Below are positions 17,960 through 54,828 of a stretch of DNA of 64,000 bases, piece by piece (position 1 is the first letter of the stretch; each line of letters begins with the position of its first letter). The stretch lies in the NCBI GenBank assembly GCA_938003955.1, contig CALKXE010000086.1, positions 1-64,000 on the forward strand, written 5' to 3'. The DNA is from an uncultured Saprospiraceae bacterium. Lineage in GTDB: Bacteria > Bacteroidota > Bacteroidia > Chitinophagales > Saprospiraceae. The position numbers and the translations under genes are program-made. The notes beneath the pieces are model-generated. The model saw nothing but the letters and a program-made list of their open reading frames with translations. It had not been told where the DNA came from and did no database searches.

Positions 17960-17992
17960 GCCTCTCTTCAGTAATGAAGGGGGGCTTTTTTT
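17960..17992 (+). terminator. terminator of the 1975-aa cargo gene
   Basis: An 11-bp stem (GCCTCTCTTCA / TGAAGGGGGGC, with G-U pairs) and a GTAA loop are followed by TTTTTTT. The preceding TTTTTGGGAT is shared with the terminator of the 1375-aa paralogue at 23052. Confidence 0.85.
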
Positions 17993-18004
17993 GTGTTATG
18001 CGTA

Positions 18005-18075
<71 letters not shown>

Positions 18076-18632
18076 ATCGAGATTAGCCGATATCTTGGAC
18101 TCTTCTAATTCTATAGACCTCTTCTATTTTATAACTATAGATTCGTATGCACTGAACACTATTACGTAGTCAAGGGCATATTTACACTTTCTCATATTTT
18201 ATCAATAGACTGTTTTTCACCCCCAATTATTAACGTATTGTTTGTGTTTTCTTAATTATTGAATTCATTAAATCAATTTTGGAGTTCTTTCAGTCTTTTA
18301 ATTCGATTATTGAATTGTCTTGTAGAATGTTTTTTATGTCCTTTATCGTATTGTTCCTGTATTCATATTTTATTCGAAATCATATAGTAATTCTTATGAT
18401 TTTCATCGAGAATTGATCCTGATATTTGGTCCAAATTGTGTATTTCTATGTTTATATTTAATTATTTATTATTTTTTTTTCCAGAATAGATAGAATTTAT
18501 AATATATATAAGAATGTATTTACTAGCTACTTAGATTGGTTTTTTTTCTTTCTTTAACTCTCGGCATCTCCATAACTACTTGATACGCAGTAAATATTAT
18601 ATAGAATAATTATGTAATATGTAAATCGTCCT

Positions 18633-28397: not shown

Positions 28398-28865
28398 ATG
28401 GCAACTTTTGAAAAGAAAAGAGGTAAGGCGTCTCCTGAGGTTTCGACCGCTTCTTTGCCCGATATCATATTTATGCTCTTGTTCTTCTTTATGATGGTAA
28501 CAGTAATGAGAGACTCAGAGCTCAAGGTAGATGTAAATACACCGGAGGCAACTGAACTTACTAAACTAGAGAAGAAGTCACTTGTGAATTATATATTCGT
28601 AGGAAGACCAAAGGTAGCATATAGAGATACATATGGGACTAAGCCAAGAATGCAGTTAGGGGATAAGTTTTCTACTGTGGCTGATATTCCTTTGTTCCTA
28701 GAAAAGCACAAAGCAAAGCTTCCTGAAAATCAAAGACAAGGTATTACCAGTTCTTTGAAGATTGATGGAACTGTGACTATGGGTATTGTAGCTGATATAA
28801 AAACAGCGCTCAGAAAAGCAAATCAATTGAAAGTGAATTACTCTGCGGGGAAACGTGTAGATTAA
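28398..28865 (+). CDS. exbD: ExbD/TolR family biopolymer transport protein (second copy)
   Basis: The 155-aa protein has a helix at about 20-42 (LPDIIFMLLFFFMMVTVM) with the conserved channel Asp, then a periplasmic domain that ends in a family-typical segment (TVTMGIVADIKTALRKAN). It follows the first ExbD by 26 nt. Two consecutive ExbD paralogues suggest a heteromeric stator. No tonB gene follows; the operon ends here at a strong terminator. Confidence 0.9.
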   Translation: MATFEKKRGKASPEVSTASLPDIIFMLLFFFMMVTVMRDSELKVDVNTPEATELTKLEKKSLVNYIFVGRPKVAYRDTYGTKPRMQLGDKFSTVADIPLFLEKHKAKLPENQRQGITSSLKIDGTVTMGIVADIKTALRKANQLKVNYSAGKRVD

Positions 28866-29240
28866 TAATCTTAAGATCAGATAAAGAAAAGCCTCTTCGA
28901 TTAATTTCGACGAGGCTTTTTTCATTTCGATGCTTTTTGCATTTACATATTCAGTTTGCGGTTCATAGTATATAACAACCTTGCAAATGAATTAACTTTA
29001 TCAAAAAATGATTTCTTATACCTATCGAGTTTATAATTCACTGTTTCTTCCAGATCGAGTGTTTACTCCGTAAGCCATCTCTTGTGCTAGATGAACCATC
29101 GCCGCATATATTTAGCTTCATTCGATGATGTCCATCGTTAAAAAATACTCGCTGTAGCTAATGCTACATCTGCGATTTTTGCCTTGAGCTTCGTCGAATA
29201 ATTTCTAAATCTTATACGGCATTATCAAACTCAAGTGGTA
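28866..29240. other. 375-nt convergent intergenic region with terminator and repeat element
   Basis: After the terminator, about 29050-29193 is a block richer in G and C. It has several small inverted repeats, such as TGTAGCTAATGCTACA (29150-29165) and CGATGATGTCCATCG (29122-29136). It runs into repeat copy B1 at 29194-29245. All frames are short. Confidence 0.55.
28888..28922 (+). terminator. terminator of the exbB/exbD operon
   Basis: The stem AAAAGCCTC / GAGGCTTTT, extended inward by TCG/CGA, is followed by a run of T residues, 22 nt after the stop codon. Confidence 0.88.
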
Positions 29241-29245
29241 TTATT
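29194..29245. repeat. dispersed intergenic repeat, family B, copy 1
   Basis: The core CTAAATCTTATACGGCATTA is identical at 29205-29224 and 41018-41037. The flanks TCGAATAA and AATGGTATTA/AGTGGTATTA are also shared, giving about 52 nt of similarity with few mismatches. This copy overlaps the last codons of uvrC. Confidence 0.85.
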
Positions 29246-31058
29246 CTTCTTCACCAAAATCTGGATTGTAATATCCAAAAACTTTTTTAGCATTAGCCTT
29301 TCCAATAACAGATGCTAGAGAATCTTCTGTTTGTTTCTTTACCTTATTTACACTTTTATAGGTAGTGAGAAGTAAGTTGGCAGTTTTCTTACCGATTCCT
29401 GGTATGTCTGTTAACTCTGTTCCAAGAAAGTGTTTCGACCGCAGGTTTCTATGCAGTGTCAATGCAAAACGGTGGGCTTCATCCCTAGCTTGTTGAATCA
29501 ATTTTAAAGATTCCGATTTCTTATTAATATGAAGTGGGACAGAATCATTCGGAAAGTAAAGTTCTTCTAGTTTTTTTGCGATTCCTATAATTGTAATCTT
29601 GCCGATAAGATCAAGTTTTTCCAGGCTTTTGACAGCGGAAGATAATTGGCCTTTACCACCATCAATAACAATAAGTTGTGGAAGTGGCTGATTCTCTCTT
29701 AAGAGTCTACTGTATCTTCTGTAAACGACTTCTTCCATAGATGCAAAATCATCAGGACCCACTACTGTTTTGATTTTGAAGTGGCGATAATCTTTTTTTG
29801 ATGGTTTTGCATTCTTGAAGACTACGCAGCTAGCTGTAGGGTTTGTTCCTTGGATATTGGAGTTATCAAAACACTCTAAATGAAGTGGTACTTCTTTCAT
29901 GTAAAGATCAGCTTGTAACGTTTTGAGAATTCTTTCTGCAGAAGTTTGCTTACCAATATTGTTGATTTCAGATTTCTTTTTTTGCAACAAATGATAGGTT
30001 ACATTTTTAGCTGAGAGATCCATTAATTTCTTCTTGTCACCTCTTTGGGGGACAGTGACTAATACAGATTCATCTTCCATATCTACATCAAACGGAGCGA
30101 CTACTTCAGGTGCAATACTATTGTATTTTTCTCTAATTACCGGAATCACATAAGATAAGAGATCTCTCTCATCTTCATCCAGATTTTTTTCCATTTCGAT
30201 TGTGTCGCTATTTATCATTGCACCATTAATTACTTTGATATAATTAACGAATGCATATTTTTCATCAGTCTGGATGGTAAATACATCTACATCTTTTATT
30301 GTAGCACTGACGACCGTCGATTTTGCTTGGTAGTCTACTAGAGCATCCAACTTGTCTTTAGTTAATTGAGCCTCTTCAAACTGCATGACATCGGCTTGGT
30401 CTGCCATTTCTTGTTTAAGGTAATCTTTAACTTGTTTGAAATTTCCCTTAAGTATATTTTTTACTTGATCTATCTTTTCATTGTAGGCTTCCTCGTCCTC
30501 TAATCCTTCGCATGCACCCATGCAGTTTTTAATGTGATACTCAAGGCAAACTTTGAATTTTCCTTTATTTACATTCCCTTCAGAGAGATTATATGTACAA
30601 GTACGCAAAGGGAAAAGACGTTTAATGACCTCTAGTAATACCTTAACCCTATATTTAGAAGTGTAAGGGCCGAAATAGGAAGAGCCATCTCGATTCACTT
30701 GCCTAGTAAAATAAACTCTTGGGAAACGTTCATTTTTAATACATAAGTAGGTGTATGATTTTCCGTCCTTGAGAGATACATTATATCTAGGCTGATTCTT
30801 TTTTATTAGTGTGTTTTCCAACAGTAATGCATCGTGCTCAGAATCTACAATAGTAAATTCTATATGATGCGAATTTCTAACTAGGGCTTTGGTTTTATAC
30901 TGTTGATGTTTTTTTTCTCCAAAGTATGAGTTAAGCCTGTTTTTTAGATTTTTGGCTTTGCCGACATACAGGATCGTGTTGTTCTCATCTAGAAATCTGT
31001 AGACGCCAGGATCTTTGGGTATGGATGGTGAAAACTCTCTAAATTCCTTTGTCGTCAT
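29241..31058 (-). CDS. uvrC: UvrABC excinuclease subunit C
   Basis: The 605-aa protein has all expected parts: an N-terminal GIY-YIG nuclease domain (about 14-95; PGVYRFLDENNTILYVGKAK, then NRL), a UVR/UvrB-contact segment near 205-240, the UvrC RNase H-like nuclease with ECFDNSN near residue 395, and a C-terminal helix-hairpin-helix pair (about 545-600; TDIPGIGKKTANLLL). It makes both incisions in nucleotide excision repair together with UvrB. The start at 31058 agrees with the usual N-terminus. The stop codon lies inside repeat copy B1. Confidence 0.97.
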   Translation of the reverse strand: MTTKEFREFSPSIPKDPGVYRFLDENNTILYVGKAKNLKNRLNSYFGEKKHQQYKTKALVRNSHHIEFTIVDSEHDALLLENTLIKKNQPRYNVSLKDGKSYTYLCIKNERFPRVYFTRQVNRDGSSYFGPYTSKYRVKVLLEVIKRLFPLRTCTYNLSEGNVNKGKFKVCLEYHIKNCMGACEGLEDEEAYNEKIDQVKNILKGNFKQVKDYLKQEMADQADVMQFEEAQLTKDKLDALVDYQAKSTVVSATIKDVDVFTIQTDEKYAFVNYIKVINGAMINSDTIEMEKNLDEDERDLLSYVIPVIREKYNSIAPEVVAPFDVDMEDESVLVTVPQRGDKKKLMDLSAKNVTYHLLQKKKSEINNIGKQTSAERILKTLQADLYMKEVPLHLECFDNSNIQGTNPTASCVVFKNAKPSKKDYRHFKIKTVVGPDDFASMEEVVYRRYSRLLRENQPLPQLIVIDGGKGQLSSAVKSLEKLDLIGKITIIGIAKKLEELYFPNDSVPLHINKKSESLKLIQQARDEAHRFALTLHRNLRSKHFLGTELTDIPGIGKKTANLLLTTYKSVNKVKKQTEDSLASVIGKANAKKVFGYYNPDFGEEE

Positions 31059-40909: not shown

Positions 40910-40930
40910 GTTAAGGAGTTTTTAAATAAA

Positions 40931-40973
40931 GACCGGCTTTTGTAGCAATTAGAATAATTGCGGGAAAACGGTC
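40931..40973. other. long hairpin, possible small RNA 5' domain
   Basis: GACCG (40931-40935) pairs with CGGTC (40969-40973). Inside, TTTT/AAAA and GCAATTA/TAATTGC pair around a GAA loop, giving about 16 bp in total with small internal loops. It is followed by repeat B2 and by the hairpin at 41157. Confidence 0.45.
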
Positions 40974-41006
40974 TCACCAGAAAGCTAAATTTTAAAATGA
41001 CTCTCC

Positions 41007-41059
41007 TCGAATAACCCCTAAATCTTATACGGCATTATCAATCTCAAATGGTATTACTT
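41007..41059. repeat. dispersed intergenic repeat, family B, copy 2
   Basis: Same element as 29194-29245, in the same orientation relative to the plus strand, with the 20-nt core CTAAATCTTATACGGCATTA identical and the flanks nearly so. Confidence 0.85.
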
Positions 41060-54598: not shown

Positions 54599-54669
54599 TA
54601 TATGAATATAGTTGCATTGGCTGTTATTTCTGATTATAAAATTGAATTTAGTATAATTTTAATCATTAG

Positions 54670-54828
54670 ATTCTCCGATGCCTGCGTCGGGGGCATAAGA
54701 AGTATGATTTTGCATAAAAACGCCTCATTATAAAAAAGATCTGAGTTTCGACCTTTTGGTTTAAAAGGTTTTGGGGAATACTCCATCCGTTTGCAGTAGG
54801 GTAGTCAAAATTTAGGATCTTTTACTTG
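54670..54828. repeat. diverged intergenic repeat, family A, copy 2
   Basis: Same element as 2645-2805, in the same orientation on the plus strand. Conserved blocks in the same order include GATGCCTGCGTCGG, TTTTGCATAAAA, AAAAAAGATC and CTCCATC, ending in GTCAAAATTTAGGATCTTTT. The hairpin of copy 1 is weaker here. Confidence 0.6.

Follow-up and report, generated by a model that had tools for sequence, protein, structure and literature searches.

A MITE with a conserved hairpin tip at the stop codon of uvrC in a Saprospiraceae genome, and its relatives in other bacteria

The repeat found behind uvrC in an uncultured Saprospiraceae bacterium is a real MITE whose insertion is demonstrated. Related elements occur in distant bacteria; their arms are different, but the hairpin tip is almost unchanged and its spacing from the ends nearly constant. 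The stretch of DNA analysed, referred to here as the window, comprises 64,000 nucleotides of contig CALKXE010000086.1. The element is classed as a MITE, that is, a non-autonomous transposon, because it has inverted ends, duplicated TNA flanks, empty sites and multiple copies. We favour, with a probability of roughly 0.6, the view that it is moved in trans by an IS5-type DDE transposase, and that the tip is a separate conserved motif, putatively protein-binding, which would favour spread or tolerance of the element. Within the literature searched, there is no description of a superfamily that retains its tip and keeps its arms at near-constant length: among 5.39 million open-access papers, tip strings retrieve two unrelated ones only, and the titles and abstracts listed name no such family.

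A sequence-only reading of the window had pointed to a dispersed intergenic repeat with one full-length and one truncated copy, from a 20-nt core said to be identical at 29205-29224 and 41018-41037 with nearly identical flanks over about 52 nt. The core is indeed identical at both places, and the 53-nt segments 29191-29243 and 41004-41056 share 89% identity. The repeat is not limited to these two copies. With up to 3 mismatches the core occurs at 20 places in the genome (reversed-pattern control, 1), and relatives carry the repeat too. A BLAST search of the genome with 29000-29300 gives 52 matches at E≤10, the best 20 of which, self included, have E≤1.5e-25. The control and these E values rule out a chance repeat.

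Seventeen copies are complete. The sequence that they share runs from TACC to GGTA or a close variant, outside which they differ, and their terminal inverted repeats are of the TACCAATTGAGTT / TACCATTTGAGTT type. The same TNA triplet is present on both sides in 13 of the 17, the exceptions being C54, C285, C60 and C252, the last two of which are apparently one locus on two contigs. When flanking triplets are unequal, here as well as at five loci of another genome, G025 (L223, L227, L236, L238 and L245), it is usually the middle base that differs while T-N-A is kept, as would be expected if copies with different TNA flanks had recombined. The basic unit is 159 bp. The shortest copies measure 159-160 bp and the longer ones, from 172 to 309 bp, carry inserted modules; that of copy 1 (29038-29099) is missing from the 159-bp copies and found in several longer ones. 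The element has no long reading frame. It thus combines the usual features of a MITE: short size (159-309 bp), lack of a transposase, multiple copies, terminal inverted repeats, and a target-site duplication with an empty site.

Three copies are incomplete (C194, C301 and C86b, which is copy 2 of the window). Copy 2 is located behind sucD and lacks the 5' half and the tip. The different structured block noticed before it is present (approximately 40928-41003) and turns out to be a module also found in the C33 and C144 copies. Copy 2 is not seen behind sucD in three other genomes, G001, G002 and G003, whose downstream sequence largely differs. The window also holds another dispersed two-copy repeat of 79 nt, 75% identical, at 2634-2712 and 54659-54737, and a TATC microsatellite of about 70 nt at 17989-18087.

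The boundaries of copy 1 (Table 1) replace the extent of 29050-29245 initially proposed, which also made the repeat overlap the last uvrC codons. The element only abuts these codons, and the 3-bp duplication at 29241-29243 is the stop codon itself. Empty sites, whose search in relatives had been suggested, exist in two genomes of the same genus, G002 (UvrC identity 95%) and G001 (92%). Both keep the neighbourhood, namely the gene at 28398-28865 on the other side of copy 1 (no NCBIfam match), the sequence after it and the end of uvrC, and both lack the element. Where the window has TTA-element-TTA, G002 has one TTA, the stop codon, and G001 has TAG. G003 is uninformative on this insertion because its sequence behind uvrC is different. 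Insertion at uvrC with duplication of TTA is shown. It is a clean example of a stop codon entered by an element and still in place: the element entered TAA and the duplication preserved a stop codon. As to a general preference for such sites, 4 of 70 elements coincide exactly with the stop of an open frame of 90 codons or more, versus 58 of 3,997 nearby TAA/TTA sites, a weak excess.

Table 1. Features of the two copies and of uvrC in the window
Feature	Position	Strand	Remarks
Left target-site duplication, TTA	29016..29018	.	one TTA in G002, which lacks the element
Copy 1, whole element, 222 bp	29019..29240	+	boundaries read from the 17 complete copies of the genome
Left terminal inverted repeat	29019..29037	+	
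Inserted module, ~62 nt	29038..29099	+	read from aligned copies
Span of tip model R1 in copy 1	29122-29198		
Conserved hairpin-tip motif	29136..29184	+	stem 29153-29158 with 29163-29168, loop TAAT
20-nt core, part of right arm	29205..29224	+	
Right terminal inverted repeat	29221..29240	-	
Right target-site duplication, TTA	29241..29243	.	stop codon of uvrC (TAA, minus strand)
uvrC	29241..31058	-	stop codon is the target site; TIGR00194, 499.5 bits (cut-off 285.45)
Copy 2, 5'-truncated	40928..41053	+	another module and the 3' part; left boundary approximate
TTA after copy 2	41054..41056	.	without an assignable matching left flank

Inverted ends, target duplication and the conserved hairpin tip go beyond what the sequence-only reading had described. 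On either strand the element is predicted to fold as a single long imperfect palindrome (z -5.0 and -4.8; none of 200 shuffles is as stable). For the tip, 200 fuzzy-motif matches were reduced to 73 by dereplication and 60 were aligned, the 13 sequences excluded being chance-like, module-bearing or close variants. Ten columns are invariant in this alignment, although the invariance is partly built in, because the 60 sequences were retrieved by fuzzy motif. In fourteen of the 18 predicted pairs, both partners have changed. By eye, G-T versus A-C pairs in the tip stem give no clear strand sign.

Among 39 relatives searched, 7 have a match (8 of 40 counting the own genome), several of them limited to about 56 nt around 29135-29190. 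In the latter the arms differ, yet inverted ends and TNA flanks recur in many. Within the window's family, the tip model R1 has matches in 121 of 199 genomes, own included, reaching at least 24 in many of them, but none in G001 or G003; a motif as common as this is testable. In the phylum it detects 11 of 296 genomes, own included, three of them weakly (G264, G210 and G277, E 7.7e-5 to 2.2e-4). The exact tip pattern is found in at least 119 stretches of GTDB species genomes. The 80 titled stretches among those listed are mostly from Saprospiraceae, Chitinophagales and other Bacteroidota; eight, from 6 genomes, are from Clostridia, Oscillospiraceae or Ruminococcaceae.

By BLAST, the tip is also present on plasmids of Martelella, Mitsuaria and Diaphorobacter, and of Anaerotruncus at E 5e-4, so that carriers outside the phylum include Clostridia, Alphaproteobacteria and Betaproteobacteria. 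The Martelella element (L196:2838-3108) has TACC ends, TAA on both sides, the left one being the stop codon of the preceding annotated gene, and two tips in opposite orientation that form a three-way fold. A plasmid element of Ensifer resembles it. Two opposed tips are likewise seen within one element of an Oscillospiraceae genome (L131). Seven Acinetobacter plasmid records match over 24 nt only (E 3) and are taken as chance, and E. coli genomes give no match at E≤1. Viral spread was considered and rejected: the exact pattern is in 0 stretches of IMG/VR and phages have no match at E≤0.01.

Inverted ends (alike at 10 or more of 14 bases) with identical TNA flanks accompany 87 of 174 distinct tip loci having at least 180 nt on each side, versus 12 of 400 random positions; these counts are not independent since many loci come from one genome. 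In 70 of the 87 elements both arms measure 54-58 nt, the ends being of the TA type in 37 and of the G type in 33. The arm analysis covers these 70; set aside are the other 17, which have modules or double tips or are likely false pairs, and the 87 loci that fail the test. Greedy clustering at 70% identity, used instead of single linkage at 65%, which chained 66 of the 70 arms into one group, sorts the arms into 17 families. An arm is 75% complementary to its own partner (minimum 64%) versus 51% across families (maximum 71%) and 49% when shuffled. Between families, left arms have 54% of their bases in common, slightly above this baseline. Elements with GTGCTCTGTC ends may duplicate TA alone, inside YTAR (seen by eye; uncounted).

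A broader proposal, which we hold only tentatively, is that the tip represents an undescribed hairpin motif common to MITEs of several phyla and end types, in which a widely conserved protein would recognise the tip, arms of about 55-57 nt would set the architecture, and ends would be exchanged while the tip is kept.

The tip might instead be a functionless relic of a common ancestor. This would agree with the multiplication of forms with a damaged tip (see below) and with the share of the invariance that is due to fuzzy-motif retrieval. It is unlikely, however, in view of the compensatory stem changes and kept loop bases found across Bacteroidota, Clostridia and Proteobacteria, in elements whose arms are near the shuffled level across families. 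In addition, R1 recovers tips that were not used in building it, at loci L128 (75.5 bits) and L198 (33.6), as well as the second, inverted tips of L131 (27.2) and L196 (26.0).

The near-constant arm length, shared by TA-type and G-type ends, and the pairing of each arm with its own partner in 17 families could also mean that transposition is directed by the tip. According to this model, the folded tip would be the binding site of the enzyme or of a partner, and a ruler would place the ends about 55-57 nt away, their sequence drifting freely provided that the arms pair. We consider it improbable. Ends are conserved within a genome, and there are elements whose tip is broken or missing. In 40 regions of the genome G201, 14 elements of 159 bp have the tip, and in 11 of these the TNA flanks are identical. 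Another 21 elements there are longer (236-792 bp) and have the same ends; no intact tip is detected in them, though all 21 lie between identical TNA triplets. Several of these composites agree in both the set and the order of their modules and seem to have moved as units, although later insertion is also possible. G025 has ten elements of 155 bp, nine with identical flanks, and most of those listed are missing the right-hand portion of the tip. A tip-less family with similar ends exists in the own genome, G000, where it is more abundant than the family studied here; it has TACC ends and 83 end matches, commonly 102 bp apart (for example C4:19111-19212), and one copy is nested in copy C163 of the studied family. 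Moreover, GC skew at the elements is positive in 74 of 158 and gives no replication-strand sign, which speaks against a single-strand, fork-linked route.

Several further features of these elements were observed. The 155-bp partial-tip subfamily of G025 is present in many copies (L215, L219, L224, L226, L233-L235 and L239, among others). In the same genome, L213, L217, L229 and L243 are left ends standing alone, with neither tip nor right end, shortly upstream of long reading frames; they are perhaps remnants serving as promoter or leader. Two second-family copies of G000 (L029 and L030, on C147 and C65) contain arrays built from repeats of 18 nt and of 12 nt; for both repeats, one unit resembles the copy 1 module. 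In G201, L291, L293, L295, L306, L321 and L322 have the same ends and nested modules of about 80-100 nt, in which three variable hairpins are joined by the conserved linkers CCACCC, TTCCCTCATC and TTCATTCAGTCAT; the first four of these elements have no Rfam match.

The abundance of the tip-less TACC family and the 21 of 21 identical TNA flanks of the longer G201 elements indicate that the ends carry mobility. The enzyme would thus seem to need the ends, leaving the tip another or a helping role. In the reading that we prefer, a DDE transposase acting in trans would recognise the inverted ends, insert the element at TNA and duplicate 3 bp. The tip would be a structural motif separate from the arms, present in numerous MITEs whose ends and arms are different, which as a putative protein-binding hairpin, in DNA or in RNA, would favour spread or tolerance of its carrier while being dispensable for some transpositions. 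Because the TNA duplications fit, the transposase is most likely of the IS5 family, with a target choice of the IS1031 type. Members of the IS1031 group prefer TNA and make a 3-bp repeat (PMC12016507), and the element shows both. Its ends begin with TACC, not with the GAG-type sequence of known IS1031 members; the ends of ISLrh begin with GAACCTG (PMC12016507). An IS1031-like element of G217 also has other ends, GAGCCTGTTTATGAAT, beginning with GAGCCTG. No transposase-bearing element with matching ends is among the matches listed or read in G000, G025 (40 regions) and G201 (40 regions), nor is there one with these ends around the PF13586 matches of seven genomes. PF13586, one IS5-type domain, has no match in G000, G002 and G025. 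These absences are weak evidence, since drafts often lose multi-copy IS elements and the searches covered only part of the end matches.

A third alternative assumes that the element acts mainly as RNA, a read-through hairpin protecting or processing the host transcript and thereby keeping the tip. The stability of the fold on both strands and the position of 112 of 117 elements between genes are compatible with this idea, which nonetheless appears doubtful. Strand bias relative to genes is not found: the four orientations (--, ++, -+ and +-) number 39, 29, 22 and 22. A simple terminator scan flags nothing in 28700-29400, although it is insensitive, because a plausible terminator before the element was also missed. 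At gathering score nothing in Rfam 15 matches the element; there are only sub-threshold chance matches (E 0.43 or worse). A known structured RNA family over the elements was rejected, as tRNA and Gut-1 matches fall outside them. The Gut-1 RNA (RF01706, 52.6 bits) is at L122:3499-3566, from a MAG of Oscillospiraceae, and lies apart from the tip.

Among known systems, the IS1031 group of the IS5 family shares with the present element the TNA target and the 3-bp duplication (PMC12016507), and differs from it by the transposase gene and by mostly other end sequences. REP and REPIN sequences with RAYT are likewise intergenic palindromes, mobile or mobile-like, of which a structured part is conserved. 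The element differs from them in size and layout, and has inverted ends, a TNA duplication and a conserved tip. ERIC, YPAL and bcr1 are taxon-limited. They are also intergenic imperfect palindromes of similar size, compared here by description. A table of PMC2267715 gives 168-169 bp for YPAL, 69-127 bp for ERIC and 147-167 bp for Bcr1. The conserved feature of REPs, which measure 20-40 bp, is at one of their ends (PMC3733652). In the same phylum, the element resembles the IS5-family MITEs of Porphyromonas gingivalis (BrickBuilt and the MITE239/464/700 types), described in PMC4596501 as intergenic, with inverted ends and without transposase. BrickBuilt contains a minisatellite, like some second-family copies of this genome. 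The P. gingivalis MITEs have ends in common with known IS5-family elements, whereas the ends here match none found. BrickBuilt is reported in the same source to have no BLASTn match outside its species, whereas the present tip occurs in several phyla. In the usual description a MITE retains its ends and its middle is lost. In the elements studied here it is the middle that persists across phyla, with ends and arms varying at near-constant length, which points to some role of the hairpin inside parasitic DNA.
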